A stretch of DNA of 41,131 nucleotides, from the NCBI GenBank assembly GCA_015067525.1, contig SVMH01000016.1, positions 1 through 41,131 on the forward strand. The letters run 5' to 3'. Positions 4,595 to 33,654 of the stretch are shown here, in pieces. The first letter of the stretch is position 1; each line of letters opens with the position of its first letter. The DNA is from Oscillospiraceae bacterium. Lineage in GTDB: Bacteria > Bacillota > Clostridia > Oscillospirales > Oscillospiraceae. A program made the translations under genes and the position numbers. The notes under the pieces are model-generated. The model saw only the letters and a list, made by a program, of their open reading frames with translations, was not told the DNA's origin and made no database searches.

Positions 4595-5005
4595 TTAGAA
4601 ATTCTTGTCCACGTATTTATTGAACTTTTTGGCATCCAGATCGTTCTGATAGCTGTTGCGGAAGCGCTTGACGGTCAGGCTGTTGTATTCCAGTACCTTG
4701 CGGTATTTCCAAAAGCCCGCCAGCAGAGGAACGATGCCAACGGCGAAGCCCCAGGGCTGCAGCCGGTAACAGAACCACAGCAGCACGCCCAGCACCAAAA
4801 CAGAGATGACCACGCCGGCGATCTGCTTTTTGGGGTGGAGCTTGTCGACGGCCTCTTGGGAAATGATCCCTTCTTCCACCATAGCTTTGGCGAAGCGTTT
4901 CTGCACACCGAACAGGGAGATGGCGTTGAGTACACACGGCGCTGTCACAAAAAATGCGAACAGGGCGATCAATACGTAATAGAGAAGAAGACCGAAATCA
5001 CCCAT
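4595..5005 (-). CDS. Small membrane protein, unknown function
   Basis: A 136-residue protein with no family I can name. It has a hydrophobic N-terminal segment (about residues 5-30), a charged stretch (QKRFAKAMVEEGIISQEAVDKLHPKK), then two closely spaced hydrophobic segments (about 62-98), and a basic, Asn/Tyr/Lys-rich tail that is probably cytoplasmic. CAGGAGG lies 6 bases before the ATG. The gene begins 21 bases after the racemase-family gene at 5027-6121 and is almost certainly co-transcribed with it. A role linked to that enzyme is only an inference. Confidence 0.75.
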   Translation of the reverse strand: MGDFGLLLYYVLIALFAFFVTAPCVLNAISLFGVQKRFAKAMVEEGIISQEAVDKLHPKKQIAGVVISVLVLGVLLWFCYRLQPWGFAVGIVPLLAGFWKYRKVLEYNSLTVKRFRNSYQNDLDAKKFNKYVDKNF

Positions 5006-13038: not shown

Positions 13039-14550
<1,512 letters not shown>

Positions 14551-14594: not shown

Positions 14595-14880
14595 AAGAGA
14601 TAAAAAAAGCCTCCGTCTCCTTCTTACGAAGAGACGAAAGCTTAAACTTCCGCGGTACCACTCTTGTTGGCATAGAATATGCCCGCTTTCTCCCATCGGC
14701 GCCATGGCGCGAATGAGGCCTCGCTGGTAACGGTGAGGAAACCCGTCTTTCCCTAACCGAAACTTTCGGCTCAGGAAAGATACTCGAGGGCCAGTGACGT
14801 CAACTCCCGCCCGCACTGCCTTGCACCGACCGGCAGCTCTCTGAAGCTTCTTGAAGCGACTTTTTCCCTGTCAACGTATT
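14595..14880 (-). ncRNA. T-box riboswitch leader of leuACDB
   Basis: On the minus strand the leader contains the near-invariant T-box sequence AGAGTGGTACCGCGG (14650-14664). It is followed by a terminator stem (about 14614-14636) and a run of seven T (14602-14608). Upstream is a stem I with AGAGAGC and GGTCGGTGCAAGGCAG, typical of the tRNA-elbow-binding region. A CTC at 14786-14788, in the 3' part of stem I, is the likely leucine specifier codon. Uncharged tRNA-Leu would stabilise the antiterminator and turn on leuACDB. T-box identity is very secure and the exact specifier assignment less so. Confidence 0.93.
14602..14636 (-). terminator. T-box-controlled terminator upstream of leuA
   Basis: CGTCTC/GAGACG base pairing plus the TTC/GAA extension is followed by TTTTTTT. 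It competes with the antiterminator formed by the T-box sequence immediately 5' of it. Confidence 0.85.
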
Positions 14881-14900
14881 TGTTCTTTTCTGTTGGACTA

Positions 14901-15117: not shown

Positions 15118-15146
15118 TTGCGAATCGCAGGGCGGGCAGGTATAAT
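15118..15146 (+). promoter_or_regulatory. Promoter of the ilv operon
   Basis: TTGCGA (15118-15123) and a perfect TATAAT (15141-15146) are 17 bases apart. Transcription would begin near 15153, about 55 bases before the leader peptide. Confidence 0.75.
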
Positions 15147-15208
15147 TGCAAACAAGAAAACCCGTTTTGGGCGTTTTCAAAGGAGCGGCACAGGCCGCGG
15201 AGGATACC

Positions 15209-15343
15209 ATGTTTATGATGAGCCTGATCAACATTCTGCTGGTTGACATTATTCTGGTTCTGGTACTGGACATTCTGGTACGGAAAGAGAATAGTGTGTT
15301 TGGTCATGCCAAAGGCAGAAGAGAAACGGCCGCCGAGATGTAA
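15209..15343 (+). CDS. Branched-chain-rich leader peptide of the ilv operon
   Basis: A 44-residue reading frame with a good GGAGG site 5 bases before its ATG. Residues 6-24 contain 7 Leu, 5 Ile and 4 Val out of 19, the rest being Asn and two Asp. A polar tail (from RKEN) ends at TAA. It lies between the ilv promoter and a terminator (15382-15415) just before the ilv genes. This is the classic layout of ribosome-mediated attenuation, in which stalling at Leu/Ile/Val codons prevents terminator formation. A 7-base segment in the tail (GGTCATG, 15302-15308) can pair with the terminator's 5' arm (CGTGACC, 15384-15390) as a minimal antiterminator. A small membrane peptide is the alternative reading. 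Confidence 0.8.
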   Translation: MFMMSLINILLVDIILVLVLDILVRKENSVFGHAKGRRETAAEM

Positions 15344-15381
15344 GCCAAGAGGCTTCATTACATACGACGAATCGCTGACAG

Positions 15382-15415
15382 CCCGTGACCCGACACAAGG
15401 GTCGCGGGTTTTTAT
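15382..15415 (+). terminator. Attenuator terminator of the ilv operon
   Basis: A 10-bp stem (CCCGTGACCC with GGGTCGCGGG, one G-U pair) with a 7-base loop is followed by TTTTTATT. It lies 38 bases after the leader-peptide stop and 24 bases before the next start codon, so it can only act on the ilv transcript. Confidence 0.85.
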
Positions 15416-15439
15416 TATGGTAAAAGGAGAGAGGCAAAC

Positions 15440-15670
15440 ATGGAGATGACCGGTGCACAAATTCTGATGGAAGCCCTTCTGCGTGAGAAGGTAGAGCGCG
15501 TGTTTGGCTACGCCGGCGCGACCATCTGCCCGGCCGTGGATGTTCTGCGTGCCACGCCTTCAACATTGAATCGCTGGCTGTGGGCGTCACGGACGACCCC
15601 ACCCTTTCCCGCATCACAATCATTGTCGACAGCGGCAACAGCGTGGTGGAGCAGATGGAAAAGCAGCTGA
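15440..15670 (+). pseudogene. Collapsed ilvB: first 37 codons only, then out of frame
   Basis: The frame starts with AAAGGAGAG and ATG and encodes the N-terminus of an acetolactate synthase large subunit (TGAQILMEALL, VFGYAGATICPAVDVLR). After about codon 37 (15550) the similarity ends abruptly. The next bases belong to an ilvN gene but are read in the wrong frame, giving a meaningless Trp/Ser/Thr-rich tail to the stop at 15668-15670. All catalytic and ThDP-binding parts are absent. It is not a copy of the intact ilvB at 16003, since the two N-termini differ clearly. It is probably the scar of a large deletion within an older ilvBN pair, or an assembly error. Confidence 0.85.
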
Positions 15671-15963
15671 ACAAGCTGGTGGAGGTCATCAAGGTCCGCA
15701 CGCTGGATGAAAACAGCATGATCGGCCGCGAACTGATGCTCATCAAGGTCAACGCCGGCGTCCGTACCCGGGAAAACGTCCTGACCATCTGTCAGGTCAT
15801 GGGCGCCAAGGTGACGGACATGACCCCCACCACCATGACCATGGAGATCTCCGACACCCCTGCCCGGGTAGATGATTTCGAGGCCATGATGCGCTCTTTT
15901 AATATTCTGGAAGTGGCCCGCACCGGCGTGATCGCGCTGCAGAAGGGCCCCGGCAAAATGTAA
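15556..15963 (+). pseudogene. 5'-truncated ilvN fused behind the ilvB scar
   Basis: In the frame one base back from the ilvB fragment, the sequence from FNIESLAVG to the TAA at 15961-15963 is an acetolactate synthase regulatory subunit missing about its first 30 residues, the first ACT-domain strand. The remaining ~134 codons have no internal stop: TDDPTLSRITIIVD, QLNKLVEVIKVR, and a complete second domain ending in RTGVIALQKG. It has no start of its own with a good ribosome-binding site. An in-frame ATG at 15655 lies 13 bases before the stop of the overlapping ilvB fragment, so weak coupled re-initiation is possible. It is clearly diverged from the intact ilvN at 17721. Confidence 0.82.
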
Positions 15964-16002: not shown

Positions 16003-17724
16003 TTGAAGATCCGTGCGACCCAGGCGATCATGGAATGCCTGCTGGAGCAGGACGTGGACACGGTGTTCGGCTATCCCGGCGGCACCATCCTGAACGTGTA
16101 CGACGAGCTCTATCACTATCAGGACAAGATCCACCATGTGCTGACCGCCCACGAGCAGGGCGCAGCCCATGCGGCCGACGGCTATGCCCGCGCCACCGGC
16201 AAGGTGGGTGTGTGCTTTGCCACATCCGGCCCCGGCGCCACCAACCTGACCACTGGCATTGCCACCGCCTATCTGGATTCGTCCCCCGTGGTGTTCATCA
16301 CCTGCAACGTGGGCGAGAACCTGCTGGGAAAGGACGCCTTTCAGGAGGTGGACTCCACCGGCATCGCCATGCCTATCACCAAAGCAGCCTTTCTGGTGCG
16401 TGACGCCCAGACCATCCCCGATGTGATGCGTCAGGCCTTCGCCGTGGCGGCCAGCGGCCGTCCCGGCCCCGTGCTCATCGACTTTTTGAAGAATGTCACC
16501 GCCCCTACCGAGATGGTGGACTATGAGTTCATCCCCTGGCGGGAGAACCGCAAGTGTGACAGCATCCGCCGCCTCAACGCCAGCCACCAGCTCAAGGATA
16601 CGGAGGTCAACGCCGACGATATCGACACGCTGCTGGAGATGATCGGCGAGGCGAAGCGCCCGTTGCTGATCTGCGGTGGTGGTGTGGTCCGCGGCAAGGC
16701 GGATGCGGAGTTCCGCGCCTTCGCCGAGCGGCTGGACGCCCCCGTGGCCATCACCGTCATGGGCGGCGGCGGCTTCCCCGGCAGCCACGCCCTGACCACC
16801 GGCATGATCGGCATGCACGGCTCCCAGGCCTCCAACGTGGCCTGCGATGAGTGCGATCTGCTCATTGCCGTGGGCTGCCGCTTCTCCGACCGCGTGGCGC
16901 TGGATCCCAAGACCTTTGCCCAGCAGGCAAAGATCGTGCAGATCGACATCGACCGCGCTGAGATCGACAAAAACGTGCTGACCGACCACCATATCATCGG
17001 TTCCGCCCGCCGCGTGTTGGAGCTCCTCAATGAGAAGCTGCCCCAGTACGATCACCGCGAGTGGAAGGACCGCATCCTGCCCCTGCGCGCCCCCTCCGTT
17101 GCCGAGGAGAGCGAGAGACTGACGCCCCAGCAGGTGCTGGAGGTGATCCGCACCCAGGCGCAGGACGCCATCGTGGCCACCGACGTGGGCCAGCATCAGA
17201 TGTGGGCCATCAAGTATCTCCACTTCAGCTATCCCGGCCAGCTGCTGACCTCCGGCGGTTTCGGCACCATGGGTTTCGGTCTGGGTGCTGCCATCGGTGC
17301 GCAGACCGGCCATCCGGAAAAGCGTGTCATCCACGTCACCGGCGACGGCTGCTTCCGCATGAACTGCCACGAGCTGTGCACCGTGCAGCACTATGATCTG
17401 CCGGTCATCACGGTGGTGTTCAACAACGGCACGCTGGGCATGGTGCGCCAGTGGCAGAACCTGATCTACCAGAAGCGATTTTCCCAGACCACGCTGGACC
17501 GCGGCCCCGACTTTGTGAAGCTGGCGGAGGCCTATGGACTCCACGGCTACCGCGTCACCACCCGCGCTGAGATGGAAAAGGCCTTTGCCGAGGCTCTCAG
17601 CTGCGGCACCGGCGCCGTTATCGACTGCGTGCTGGATATTGATGAGATGGTGCGCCCCATGGTGGCTGCCGGCTCGCCCATTACCCAATTCCTGCTGACG
17701 GAGAAGGAGGGGAGAAGCCTGTGA
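16003..17724 (+). CDS. ilvB: Acetolactate synthase large (catalytic) subunit
   Basis: A 573-residue ThDP enzyme that makes 2-acetolactate or 2-aceto-2-hydroxybutyrate, the first common step to valine, leucine and isoleucine. Catalytic E51 is in AHEQGAAHAADGYARATG. The ThDP/Mg motif is GDG at 447-449 with NN at 474-475. The FAD-binding region and CDLLIAVGCRFSDR are typical of biosynthetic IlvB rather than catabolic AlsS. The start is TTG at 16003, supported by AAAGGAGG 8 bases upstream and by the family start. It overlaps ilvN by 4 bases. Confidence 0.95.
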   Translation: MKIRATQAIMECLLEQDVDTVFGYPGGTILNVYDELYHYQDKIHHVLTAHEQGAAHAADGYARATGKVGVCFATSGPGATNLTTGIATAYLDSSPVVFITCNVGENLLGKDAFQEVDSTGIAMPITKAAFLVRDAQTIPDVMRQAFAVAASGRPGPVLIDFLKNVTAPTEMVDYEFIPWRENRKCDSIRRLNASHQLKDTEVNADDIDTLLEMIGEAKRPLLICGGGVVRGKADAEFRAFAERLDAPVAITVMGGGGFPGSHALTTGMIGMHGSQASNVACDECDLLIAVGCRFSDRVALDPKTFAQQAKIVQIDIDRAEIDKNVLTDHHIIGSARRVLELLNEKLPQYDHREWKDRILPLRAPSVAEESERLTPQQVLEVIRTQAQDAIVATDVGQHQMWAIKYLHFSYPGQLLTSGGFGTMGFGLGAAIGAQTGHPEKRVIHVTGDGCFRMNCHELCTVQHYDLPVITVVFNNGTLGMVRQWQNLIYQKRFSQTTLDRGPDFVKLAEAYGLHGYRVTTRAEMEKAFAEALSCGTGAVIDCVLDIDEMVRPMVAAGSPITQFLLTEKEGRSL

Positions 17725-18287
17725 AAAAAGAATTCGACCTGCAGAAGAAGCTCTACACGCTGTGCATTCTGGTAGAGGACGTGCCCGGCGTACTCAGTCA
17801 GGTGGCCCGCCTCTTTTCCCGCAAGGGCTACAACATTGAGTCCATCGTCTCCGGTGCCACGGACCGGCCCGGTATCACCCGCATCTCCATTGAGATCATC
17901 GCCGACGAGCTGATGCTCGAGCAGATCGCCGCTCAGTGCCGCAAGCAGCTGAGCGTGCTGGCGGTGAAGGTGCTGGACGAGGAGACCTGCATCCGTCAGG
18001 AAAATGCCTTCATCAAGGTCCGCGCCGCCTCCCGTGATGAGCGGGACGAGGTGATCCAGCTGGTTAATATCTTCCGCGCCAAGGTCATCGATGTGGACAA
18101 GGAAGCGCTGACCATCTATGTGTTCGGTAATCCCGCCAAGGTACAGGCCCTCATCCGGATGCTGGAGGATTTCGGCATCATGGAGATCGCCAAGACCGGT
18201 ACCATCGCCATCGAGCGGGGCAGCAATACGATTTACGACAACAACAAATTACGGGAGGAATACAACTATGGCAAGAATGTATTATGA
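17721..18287 (+). CDS. ilvN: Acetolactate synthase small (regulatory) subunit
   Basis: A 188-residue regulatory subunit. The N-terminal ACT domain (about residues 10-85) has [21 protein letters not shown] and YNIESIVSG, the valine-binding region. A second domain follows and ends in TGTIAIERG. It activates IlvB and gives feedback inhibition by valine. GTG is the start, overlapping the ilvB stop, with AAGGAGGGG upstream. A tail of about 20 residues beyond the usual end (to KNVL) arises because the gene runs 20 bases into ilvC. It is distinct from the truncated ilvN at 15556-15963. Confidence 0.94.
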
Positions 18288-19287
18288 GAAGGACTGCGAC
18301 CTGGGCAAGCTGGACGGCAAGAAGATCGGTATCATCGGTTACGGCTCTCAGGGCCATGCCCATGCCCTGAACCTGAAGGATTCCGGCTGCGACGTGTGCG
18401 TGGGTCTGCGCGAGGGCAGCAAGAACTGGGACAAGGTCCTGCAGGCCGGCCTGAAGGTGGCCACCGTGGCCGAGACCGCCAAGTGGGCCGACATCATCAT
18501 GATCCTCATCAACGATGAGACCCAGGCCGAGGTCTACAAGAAGGACATCGCCCCCAATCTGGAAGCCGGCAACGCTCTGATGTTTGCCCACGGTTTCAAC
18601 ATCCACTTCAAGCAGATCGTGCCTCCCGCCGACATCGACGTGCTGATGATCGCCCCCAAGGGCCCCGGTCATACCGTGCGCAGCCAGTATGTGGCCGGCA
18701 AGGGCGTGCCCTGTCTGATCGCCGTGGAGCAGAACGCCACCGGTAAGGCCTATGACATCGGCCTTGCTTACGCTGCCGGCATCGGCGGCGCCCGCGGCGG
18801 CGTCATGGAGACCACCTTCCAGGATGAGACCGAGACCGACCTGTTCGGCGAGCAGGCCGTTCTGTGCGGCGGCGTGGTGGAGCTGATGAAGCTGGGCTTC
18901 GAGACGCTGGTGGAAGCCGGTTACGCTCCCGAAAACGCTTACTTTGAGTGCATCCACGAGATGAAGCTGATCATCGATCTGATCAACAAGGGCGGCGTTG
19001 CCATGATGAACTACTCCATCTCCGATACCGCCGAGTACGGCGAGTATGTCTCCGGCAGCCGCATCCTGCCCTATGAGGAGACCAAGAAGAACATGAAGGC
19101 CGTGCTGGCCGACATTCAGGACGGCGTCTTTGCCGGCAAGTGGATCGCCGAGAACAAGAACGGCCGTACCTTCTTCAACGCCAAGCGCGCCCAGCTGGCC
19201 CGCCACCAGATGGAGACCGTGGGCGCCGAGCTGCGCCGCAATATGCTCTGGGGCGCCGATGTGGACCCCGACACCGCTTCCAACTGA
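18268..19287 (+). CDS. ilvC: Ketol-acid reductoisomerase (class I)
   Basis: A 339-residue enzyme that isomerises and reduces acetolactate to 2,3-dihydroxyisovalerate with NAD(P)H and Mg2+. The nucleotide-binding [13 protein letters not shown] begins at residue 24. APKGPGH and GGARGG are family hallmarks, and the C-terminal knotted domain carries the metal ligands ([21 protein letters not shown]). Length fits the short class I form. The start at 18268 is preferred over in-frame upstream codons because GGGAGGAAT lies before it and the family begins here. It therefore begins 20 bases inside ilvN. Confidence 0.96.
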
Positions 19288-19336: not shown

Positions 19337-19366
19337 TCCATCTGGTTTTCTAAGGAGGTAACACCC

Positions 19367-21028
19367 TTGCGAAGTGACGTGATCAAAAGCGGCATCCCCG
19401 CCGCACCCAACCGCTCGCTGCTGTATGCACTGGGCTATACCAAAGAAGAGCTGGAGCGCCCCCTCATCGGCGTAGTGTGCTCTTATAACGAGATCGTGCC
19501 CGGCCACATGAATCTGGATAAGATCGCCGAGGCCGTCAAGGCCGGTATCCGCGCCGCCGGCGGTACGCCGGTGGAGTTTCCCGCCATCGCCGTGTGTGAC
19601 GGCATCGCCATGGGCCATGTGGGCATGAAGTACTCGCTGGTGACCCGCGATCTGATCGCCGACTCCACCGAGGCCATGGCCATGGCCCACCAGTTTGACG
19701 GTCTGGTCATGATCCCCAACTGCGATAAAAACGTACCCGGTCTTCTCATGGCCGCGGCCCGTGTCAACGTGCCCACTGTGTTCGTCTCCGGCGGCCCCAT
19801 GCTGGCCGGCACCCTTGCCGACGGCAGCCGCACCTGCCTGAGCCACATGTTTGAGGCGGTGGGCGCCCACTACGCCGGCAAGCTGGACGATGAAGGCCTG
19901 CAGGACTATGAGGAGAATGCCTGCCCCACCTGCGGTTCCTGCTCCGGCATGTACACGGCCAACTCCATGAACTGCCTCACCGAGGCCATCGGCATGGCCC
20001 TCAAGGGCAACGGCACCATCCCCGCCGTGTGGTCGGCCCGCTTGCGTCTGGCCAAGCACGCCGGTATGCAGGTGATGGAGCTGGTGAAAAAGGACATCCG
20101 TCCCCGCGACATCATGACTGCCGCCGCCTTCCACAACGCTGAGACCGTGGATATGGCGCTGGGCTGCTCCACCAACACCATGCTGCACCTGCCGGCCATC
20201 GCCCATGAGTGCGGCATCGAGCTGAGCTTCGATATGTCCAACGAGATCAGCGGCAAGACCCCCAACCTGTGCCATCTGGCCCCCGCCGGCTCCACCTATA
20301 TGGAGGATCTGGAGCGAGCCGGCGGCGTCCACGCCGTGATGGCCGAGCTGGCCGAAGCGGGCTTGCTGGACACCTCTGTCATGACGGTTACCGGCAAGAC
20401 GCTGGGCGAGAATCTGGTGGGTGCGGTGAACCGCAACCCCGAGGTCATCCGCTCCATCTCCAACCCCTTCAGCAAGACCGGCGGCATCGCCGTTTTGAAG
20501 GGCAATCTGGCTCCCGACGGCTGCGTGGTCAAGCAGGCTGCCGTGGCACCTGAAATGATGCAGCACACCGGCCCTGCCCGCGTCTTTGACAGCGAGGACG
20601 ATGCCATTGCCGCCATCTACGCCGGCAAGATCGTGGCGGGCGATGTGGTGGTCATCCGCTACGAGGGTCCCAAGGGCGGCCCCGGCATGCGTGAGATGCT
20701 CAATCCCACCTCCGCCATCGCCGGCATGGGTCTGGACAAGGATGTGGCCCTTATCACCGACGGCCGCTTCTCCGGCGCCACCCGCGGCGCTTCCATTGGC
20801 CATGTGTCCCCCGAGGCCGCCTCCGGCGGTACCATCGGTCTGGTGCACGAGGGCGATCTGATCGCCATCGACATCCCTGCCCACACCATCGAACTGCTGG
20901 TGGATGAGGCGGAGCTGGCAGCGCGCCGCGCCGCGTGGGTCTGTCCCGAGCCCCGGATCAAGACCGGCTATCTGGCCCGCTACGCCCGGCTGGTGTCCTC
21001 TGCCGACCGCGGCGCCGTGCTGGATTAA
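19367..21028 (+). CDS. ilvD: Dihydroxy-acid dehydratase
   Basis: A 553-residue iron-sulfur dehydratase that converts 2,3-dihydroxyisovalerate to 2-oxoisovalerate, and the isoleucine analogue likewise. Likely cluster ligands are C119 in MIPNCDKN and C186/C189/C192 in [19 protein letters not shown] near the C-terminus is the family signature. The start is TTG at 19367: AAGGAGGT lies 7 bases upstream, and the next residues (RSDVIKSG) match the usual IlvD beginning, whereas the longer in-frame GTG at 19331 has no site. It is separated from ilvC by a hairpin-containing gap and followed after 10 bases by an AAA+ ATPase. Confidence 0.96.
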
Positions 21029-33367: not shown

Positions 33368-33444
33368 TGGTGGAGACTGCTGGACTCGAACCAGTGACCT
33401 CCTGCGTGTGAAGCAGGCGCTCTAACCAGCTGAGCTAAGCCTCC
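33368..33444 (-). tRNA. tRNA-Val (anticodon CAC)
   Basis: A 77-base cloverleaf with encoded CCA. The acceptor GGAGGCT pairs with AGTCTCC (one G-U). The D-arm is AGCTCAGCTGGTTAGAGC. The anticodon loop TTCACAC gives CAC, reading GUG. The T-loop is GTTCGAGTC. It is the last of three tRNA genes on this strand. Confidence 0.95.
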
Positions 33445-33446
33445 AT

Positions 33447-33521
33447 TGGTGACCCGTACGGGACTCGAACCCATGTTACAGCCGTGAAAGGGCCGTGTCT
33501 TAACCACTTGACCAACGGGCC
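33447..33521 (-). tRNA. tRNA-Glu (anticodon TTC)
   Basis: A 75-base cloverleaf with encoded CCA. Acceptor GGCCCGT / ACGGGTC, anticodon loop CTTTCAC giving TTC, T-loop GTTCGAGTC. Only 2 bases separate it from tRNA-Val. Confidence 0.96.
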
Positions 33522-33546
33522 GGAGAAGTGTGTTCCCTTGAAGGGT

Positions 33547-33576
33547 ACCGGCGAGATGTTTTCACATCTCGCCGGT
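33547..33576 (-). other. Hairpin between tRNA-Met and tRNA-Glu
   Basis: The perfect 12-bp stem ACCGGCGAGATG / CATCTCGCCGGT begins 1 base after the tRNA-Met CCA. It has no T-run, so it may be a processing signal or weak terminator. Confidence 0.55.
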
Positions 33577-33577
33577 T

Positions 33578-33654
33578 TGGTAGCGGCGACTGGATTCGAA
33601 CCGGTGACACTGCGGGTATGAACCGCATGCTCTAGCCAACTGAGCTACGCCGCC
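33578..33654 (-). tRNA. tRNA-Met, elongator type (anticodon CAT)
   Basis: A 77-base cloverleaf with encoded CCA. Acceptor GGCGGCG / CGCCGCT with G1-U72, anticodon loop TTCATAC giving CAT. The anticodon stem TGCGG/CCGCA lacks the three G-C pairs of initiator tRNA, so it is elongator Met. A lysidine-modified tRNA-Ile is a less likely reading. Confidence 0.93.

Follow-up and report, generated by a model that had tools for sequence, protein, structure and literature searches.

The window, which is the whole stretch of 41,131 nucleotides of Oscillospiraceae DNA analysed here, carries ilv genes on its plus strand, preceded by a leader region. The genes were named ilvB, ilvN, ilvC and ilvD from NCBIfam models. 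The elements found are as follows:

15118..15146, plus strand: predicted sigma-70-like promoter, TTGCGA-17-TATAAT, matching at 10/12 positions in a consensus scan
15199..15203, plus strand: Shine-Dalgarno sequence GGAGG, 5 nt upstream of the leader ATG (15209)
15209..15343, plus strand: leader peptide frame, 44 codons and TAA, encoding MFMMSLINILLVDIILVLVLDILVRKENSVFGHAKGRRETAAEM, with homologues in other genomes analysed
15222..15231, plus strand: possible segment 1, GCCTGATCAA, which could pair with 15300-15309; weak here, clearer in some relatives
15247..15255, plus strand: hairpin 1, 5' arm (CATTATTCT), located within the Leu/Ile/Val codons
15288..15296, plus strand: hairpin 1, 3' arm (AGAATAGTG), overlapping segment 2 by its final two bases
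15295..15308, plus strand: segment 2, TGTGTTTGGTCATG, the antiterminator 5' strand, on the codons for SVFGH
15380..15410, plus strand: intrinsic terminator hairpin of 12 pairs including G-T, with a T-run from 15409
15384..15397, plus strand: segment 3, CGTGACCCGACACA, comprising the terminator 5' arm and loop and forming the antiterminator 3' strand
15440..15963, plus strand: remnant (frames 15440-15670 and 15580-15963) in which about 37 residues of a first ilvB are joined to a truncated ilvN
16003..17724, plus strand: second, full-length ilvB, acetolactate synthase large subunit (TIGR00118, 676.6 bits)
17721..18287, plus strand: ilvN, small subunit (TIGR00119, 152.1 bits)
18268..19287, plus strand: ilvC, ketol-acid reductoisomerase (TIGR00465, 426.8 bits)
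19349..21028, plus strand: ilvD, dihydroxy-acid dehydratase (TIGR00110, 803.2 bits)

The promoter, the GGAGG site, the 44-codon frame with its run of branched-chain residues, its stop, the terminator with T-run and the ilv genes had all been named in an initial annotation of this DNA; each was recovered on the sequence, and the coordinates were correct. The gene order ilvBNCD given there holds in part. All four genes follow the leader, but the ilvB/ilvN remnant comes first. The truncated ilvN of the remnant matches its model from position 36-37 onward. In two relatives of the same genus (G024 and G007) the first ilvB and ilvN are intact and lie upstream of the second pair. In G008 the leader precedes the second ilvB with, by our reading, just a scrap between them, and the first ilvB/ilvN of that genome (locus L004) looks like a separate decay. 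The remnant in the window could also be an assembly error of the draft genome.

On the opposite strand, leuA (13039-14550) lies head to head with the ilv leader. The only T-box in the window (14627-14883, minus strand) is located upstream of leuA, about 300 bp from the ilv leader, so that a single intergenic region would hold two different amino-acid sensors. In G024 (locus L003), too, a T-box and the leader are on opposite strands. A cluster of three tRNA genes is found further along the window, at 33371-33654 on the minus strand (Rfam RF00005).

The leader appears to be a short frame with a start signal of its own, rich in codons for the amino acids that it would regulate: residues 6-24 are Leu, Ile or Val at 16 of 19 positions. 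An intrinsic terminator lies between the leader and genes of the matching pathway. The region 15283-15416 folds better than all of 200 dinucleotide shuffles (z -5.25). Segment 2 and 15384-15397 form pairs at 13 of their 14 positions, with one mismatch. The initial annotation had proposed that GGTCATG (15302-15308) pairs with CGTGACC (15384-15390); the positions are right, the 7-bp extent too short.

The leader DNA matches four of the 32 genomes of the genus, the window's included. The close (second) ilvB occurs in those same four genomes only, and all four have the frame and the run. The other 28, several of them incomplete, are without a close ilvB. In some the incompleteness may account for this, but most species of the genus may be unable to make branched-chain amino acids. 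A DNA search of 400 genomes of the family added a second genus, g82, with three genomes (G349, G112 and G281). Weak matches in G222 and G214 from that search lie in stretches that look coding and contain no leader, and were dropped.

A model of the 64-nt core of the leader (R1) reaches further. It matches a genome of another family, G690, with an E value of 3.5e-11, and weakly (E about 0.005) G074 and G621. All three matches are directly upstream of ilvB and have a Leu/Ile/Val-rich frame. The terminators of G690 and G621 were called automatically, whereas that of G074, with a T-run too short for the automatic caller, was set by hand. The weak matches in G074 and G621 are taken as real because ilvB adjoins them and because frame and terminator are both present. 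R1 matched 5 of the 400 family genomes and 5 of 394 genomes of the order. Inspection by eye and by frame yielded more leaders than this, so R1 under-reports the class. Among at least 80 named loci, a sample gathered by ilvB protein, it gave nine matches. Those in L046 and L041 are real and the remaining seven are at chance level, two of them being the opposite strand of the same two places.

The relatives retain the Leu/Ile/Val run despite changes in its sequence, and in the close group the leader end, SVFGHA or SAIGHA, is conserved. A terminator retained without the frame or the run, which the initial annotation held to count against its reading, was not met among the relatives examined. In an alignment of ten sequences of the window's group (A4), each of the 21 gap runs from the start codon to the end of segment 2 has a length divisible by three, against 3 of 20 between the end of segment 2 and the terminator; many gaps are shared, which by our reading leaves some 7-8 separate events. 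Judging from this alignment, the reading frame seems to matter up to segment 2 and not after it. Beyond segment 2, leader length, frame and sequence all drift.

The stretch from ACATTATTCTG to GGTCATGC is nearly fixed, with a mean column identity of 88% over seven sequences, and this core folds as the hairpin CATTATTCT:AGAATAGTG around the Leu/Ile/Val codons. Leaders fold less well once the synonymous codons within each peptide are permuted, with a mean z of -2.1 over 28 leaders; in five of these the excess folding is near zero (G160, L048, L098, G074 and G349). In four otherwise unlike leaders (L038 at about 925, L044 at about 4807, L048 at about 4815 and L147 at about 1299) the hairpin region contains CGACTTAT, which lies among the Leu/Ile/Val codons or directly follows them.

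The relation between segment 2 and the terminator was examined in 29 leaders, ten of the window's type and 19 others. Frames were chosen by Leu/Ile/Val content and position, and their starts were set by eye, that of L105 being a GTG. The complementarity of L044 and L048 had already been seen when they were accepted by eye; L045 was in the automatic list, but it too had been looked at first. Near copies of G427 (G450, G510 and G468) were left out, as were L065 and L085, whose Leu/Ile/Val-rich frames lie no more than 320 nt from ilvB. Gapped duplex energies of the terminator arm with the full leader were discarded, many leaders being no better than dinucleotide shuffles. As this measure is too noisy, ungapped complementarity was scored between a fixed segment, the 60 nt after the densest 12-codon Leu/Ile/Val window, and the terminator 5' arm, its loop and three further bases, and control segments were added.

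Leaders pair with their own terminators better than with foreign ones. The mean score was 23.2 for own pairings against 16.2 (sd 0.68) for permuted ones over the 29 leaders, 22.5 against 16.0 (sd 0.78) with one leader for each of 19 lineages, and 24.0 against 15.9 (sd 1.2) for ten mutually unlike leaders; in each case none of 20,000 permutations was as high. Upon removal of L044, L045 and L048, the fit to the own terminator over 17 lineages still has a z of 8.1. The control segments were flat: the first 60 nt gave a z of -0.6, the spacer upstream of the terminator 1.0 and the 40 nt upstream of the frame 1.5. As examples, TAATTATACTGTGG pairs with CTGCAGTATAATTA in G530, GCGTAACGC with GCGTTACGC in L098, and GGGTTTTGCCGG with TCGGCGGAACCC in L105, where the pairing spans 12 positions. 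For six of the 29 leaders (G281, G349, G639, L048, G440 and G128) several foreign partners are equal or better on one side or both. The segment after the control codons is complementary to the terminator 5' arm, and in the leaders compared it changes together with the terminator across lineages. This co-variation, like the frame, its conservation and the RNA elements, can be read directly from the sequences.

Within the close group segment 2 is nearly invariant, and the co-variation of the antiterminator there is consequently modest. In A4, standard pairs make up 93.8% of the antiterminator cells; sliding the partner strand by 1-3 columns lowers this to 30-46%. Two pairs are changed on both sides, a number equalled in 94 of 500 shuffles; the covariation score was equalled in 16 of 500 and the count of further pair types in 342 of 500. 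Of the 11 pairs of the terminator stem, 8 are changed on both sides, a number equalled in 0 of 500 shuffles. Alterations in the 5' arm of the terminator mostly leave it able to pair with segment 2 by way of G-U, and the 3' arm follows. The initial annotation had expected the run and both pairings to be kept and to co-vary in relatives. That expectation is borne out across lineages and, for the antiterminator in the close group, modestly so.

These observations bear on the idea that the frame encodes a small membrane protein of the ilv operon, the terminator being partial or belonging elsewhere. A hydrophobic stretch followed by a charged tail does resemble a single-pass membrane peptide, and a conserved SVFGHA/SAIGHA end would suit a protein. 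The conserved residues, however, lie on the antiterminator strand and change with the terminator in other lineages, the length, frame and sequence drift past segment 2, and the order of synonymous codons is constrained in most leaders, all of which makes a membrane protein a highly improbable explanation.

T-boxes are tRNA-binding RNAs without a translated frame. Their distribution relative to the leader peptides was followed in a wider survey, in which 187 of the 394 order genomes had an ilvB at E 1e-150 or better. Upstream sequence covers 85 of the 187, made up of 29 loci, 60 further loci (five genomes occurring twice) and the window. Two of the 29 loci were re-read at the right place, one of them from L038. 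In the 60-locus set, frames with at least 7 of 12 Leu/Ile/Val residues occurred in 16 genomes; eight were accepted and eight set aside by eye (G428, G452, G519, G759, G619, G433, G557 and G617). By our count, 19 of the 85 genomes have a Leu/Ile/Val-rich leader of the same plan, in some cases upstream of the first ilvB, and 17 have a T-box motif (11 in the 29-locus set and 6 in the 60-locus set). All four of the motifs submitted to Rfam from the smaller set passed, as did five of the six from the larger set, L156 being the exception. In the stretch read, 49 of the 85 have neither a leader nor a T-box, some of these ilvB genes not being first in their operon; the eight genomes whose frames were set aside are among the 49.

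Among the named loci, from whose frame scan L050 and L052 were omitted as they have no upstream sequence, leaders of the same plan were found in MAGs of Oscillibacter (L041), Oscillospiraceae (L046) and Ruminiclostridium (L045), and also in Oribacterium sinus DSM 17245 (L098) and Oligosphaera ethanolica DSM 24202 (L105). The Leu/Ile/Val-rich frame of the last (4798-4896) is outside Clostridia, and so is one upstream of ilvB in Brachyspira pilosicoli (L085, 4808-4882).

In genera g39 and g74 (loci L150-L154) a T-box ends just upstream of the first ilvB, which is 64-68% identical to the first ilvB of G007. In g1 and g82 a leader peptide occupies the operon position at which g39 and g74 have the T-box (RF00230), which presumably serves the same purpose. 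The operon is thus an instance in which one type of RNA sensor has taken the place of another, two genera having the T-box and two the leader peptide. An exchange of T-box and leader peptide has been noted for hisS in Firmicutes, according to the part of PMC2965389 available.

The T-boxes of related genera give some grounds for supposing that another RNA sensor, such as a T-box, a riboswitch (for ppGpp or another ligand) or a leader bound by a protein, operates here and that the frame is a by-product. In some Firmicutes, control of this gene is ascribed to ppGpp riboswitches, according to the part of PMC11109978 available. Such a sensor is very unlikely to account for the locus. The leader matches no Rfam family at gathering score, whereas the same kind of scan found T-boxes, and an in-frame Leu/Ile/Val run kept across unlike sequences would have no role in it. 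At E values up to 10, the leader region gave just two Rfam matches, both at chance level and far below gathering scores; the T-box model RF00230 has no plus-strand match upstream of the window's ilv genes; and a scan of ten leader loci among 20 sources returned no match to a leader, only T-boxes scoring. As to a hydrophobic frame next to a terminator by chance, for which the general frequency of short frames speaks, it can be given almost no credence, as a stop-free stretch with at least 16 of 19 Leu/Ile/Val occurs only in the leader across the six frames of the window, no comparable run arose in 60 random 41-kb sequences with the window's dinucleotide frequencies, and relatives show the same arrangement and pass the permutation tests.

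The ilv leader is very probably a ribosome-mediated transcription attenuator, as the initial annotation had proposed; conservation, co-variation with the terminator and the permutation tests all support that mechanism. How it works, from transcription and translation through stalling and masking to the direction in which it responds, also to starvation, we infer to be as follows. Transcription would start near 15153, and a ribosome would translate the leader at once. When charged Leu, Ile or Val tRNA is scarce, the ribosome would halt in codons 6-24, disrupting hairpin 1 and leaving 15295-15308 free to pair with 15384-15397 as the latter emerges. The antiterminator would consume the terminator 5' arm and loop, and polymerase would read into the ilv genes. 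When the amino acids are plentiful, the ribosome would move on, and segment 2 would be either covered by the moving ribosome or refolded with upstream leader RNA. With segment 2 masked, the terminator would form and transcription would stop near 15415. Any control of the promoter by CodY would add to attenuation and not replace it.

The geometry of the leaders bears on the stalling and masking steps. L044 was left out of the distance, segment 1:2 and codon-permutation analyses. For G349, whose best antiterminator match is in the Leu/Ile/Val region, the homologous TTGGTC site was used in the first two. Val24, the last codon of the 19-residue run, ends 14 nt upstream of segment 2 in the window, and the median distance over 28 leaders is 19.5 nt, close to the forward reach of a ribosome. 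In textbook attenuators a ribosome at the stop codon covers the antiterminator strand. In 16 of the 28 leaders a terminating ribosome could cover segment 2, the stop codon lying upstream of the segment's end or at most 18 nt past it. In the window the stop codon is 33 nt past segment 2, and a ribosome positioned there would not cover it. A ribosome at the stop codon as a general masking step is not supported by the geometry in the window's genome. Placement of the stop codon is in our judgement not defining, since masking by refolding or by ribosome transit would not need it.

Refolding could involve segment 1. The first codons are complementary to segment 2 in some leaders (G007, G681, G669, G529, G459, G530 and L105). 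Over 19 lineages, the pairing of segments 1 and 2 scores 16.5 against 14.3 for permuted partners, with 19 of 20,000 permutations as high. In the window it scores 17.8, and 1 of 18 foreign segments 2 and 4 of 18 foreign segments 1 do as well. Within the window's group the pairing is not specific to a leader's own partner (18,349 of 20,000 permutations as high).

Taken as a class, these leaders are likely to form a family of ilv leader-peptide attenuators that is undescribed, widespread in this order of Clostridia and also present outside it (Oribacterium sinus, Oligosphaera ethanolica). A single stretch would serve in them as antiterminator, hairpin and peptide code at once, and related genera would have either such a leader or a T-box at this operon. 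Branched-chain leader-peptide attenuation would then extend to a large, largely uncultured group of gut Clostridia, where T-boxes or nothing would have been expected. The leaders have diverged so far that mainly the pairings are shared, which makes them suitable for testing searches that look for such switches through complementarity and not through sequence.

In Escherichia coli, the ilvGMEDA and ilvBN leaders encode Leu/Ile/Val-rich peptides and follow a logic of segment 1:2, 2:3 and 3:4 pairing. Compared by description, their plan is similar to that of the present leader, in another phylum. No description of a branched-chain leader peptide in Oscillospirales or Clostridia was found in titles, abstract openings and passages of selected papers, a scope that takes in little of the subscription literature, and the main text of an RNA-discovery paper (PMC8040213) contains neither 'ilv' nor 'acetolactate'. 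The leader type thus seems to be undescribed, although branched-chain leader-peptide attenuation itself is known, Firmicutes included. As the kind of attenuation is known, and neither an Rfam match nor a description was found, the leader is counted as a new example of a known mechanism.

The view of the initial annotation that Firmicutes mostly use T-boxes or CodY accordingly needs a qualifier. In the available portion of PMC5864092, Rli60 of Listeria monocytogenes is a branched-chain leader attenuator of the ilv-leu operon, shown with mutants and reporters; that of PMC5794164 gives a leucine-rich attenuator of the Staphylococcus aureus ilv-leu operon, supported by suppressor mutants, and cites predictions for Lactococcus and Streptococcus. 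As far as these descriptions go, Rli60 resembles the present leader in belonging to a Firmicute and in having a short leader peptide with regulatory codons and a terminator opposed to an antiterminator, upstream of branched-chain genes. It differs in being a 13-residue peptide upstream of ilvD and under CodY, whereas here 44 codons, with Leu, Ile or Val at 16 of 19 residues, precede ilvB.

An ilvB motif is mentioned for Leptospira in the part of PMC8632094, another RNA-discovery paper, available. The ilvB-II uORF motif of Corynebacterium ilvBNC has 103 of 103 representatives in Corynebacterium according to the accessible text of PMC11109978 (see also PMC10272879 and PMC11857589). Compared by description, it too has an Ile/Leu/Val-rich uORF upstream of ilvB, with a terminator stem and an antiterminator. 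The S. aureus attenuator, as outlined in the same portion of PMC5794164, shares with the present leader a Firmicute branched-chain leader peptide and a downstream terminator. There, however, a 26-residue peptide lies upstream of ilvD and the proposed partner of the antiterminator is the poly-U tail, whereas here 44 codons lie upstream of ilvB and the partner would be the terminator 5' arm and loop.
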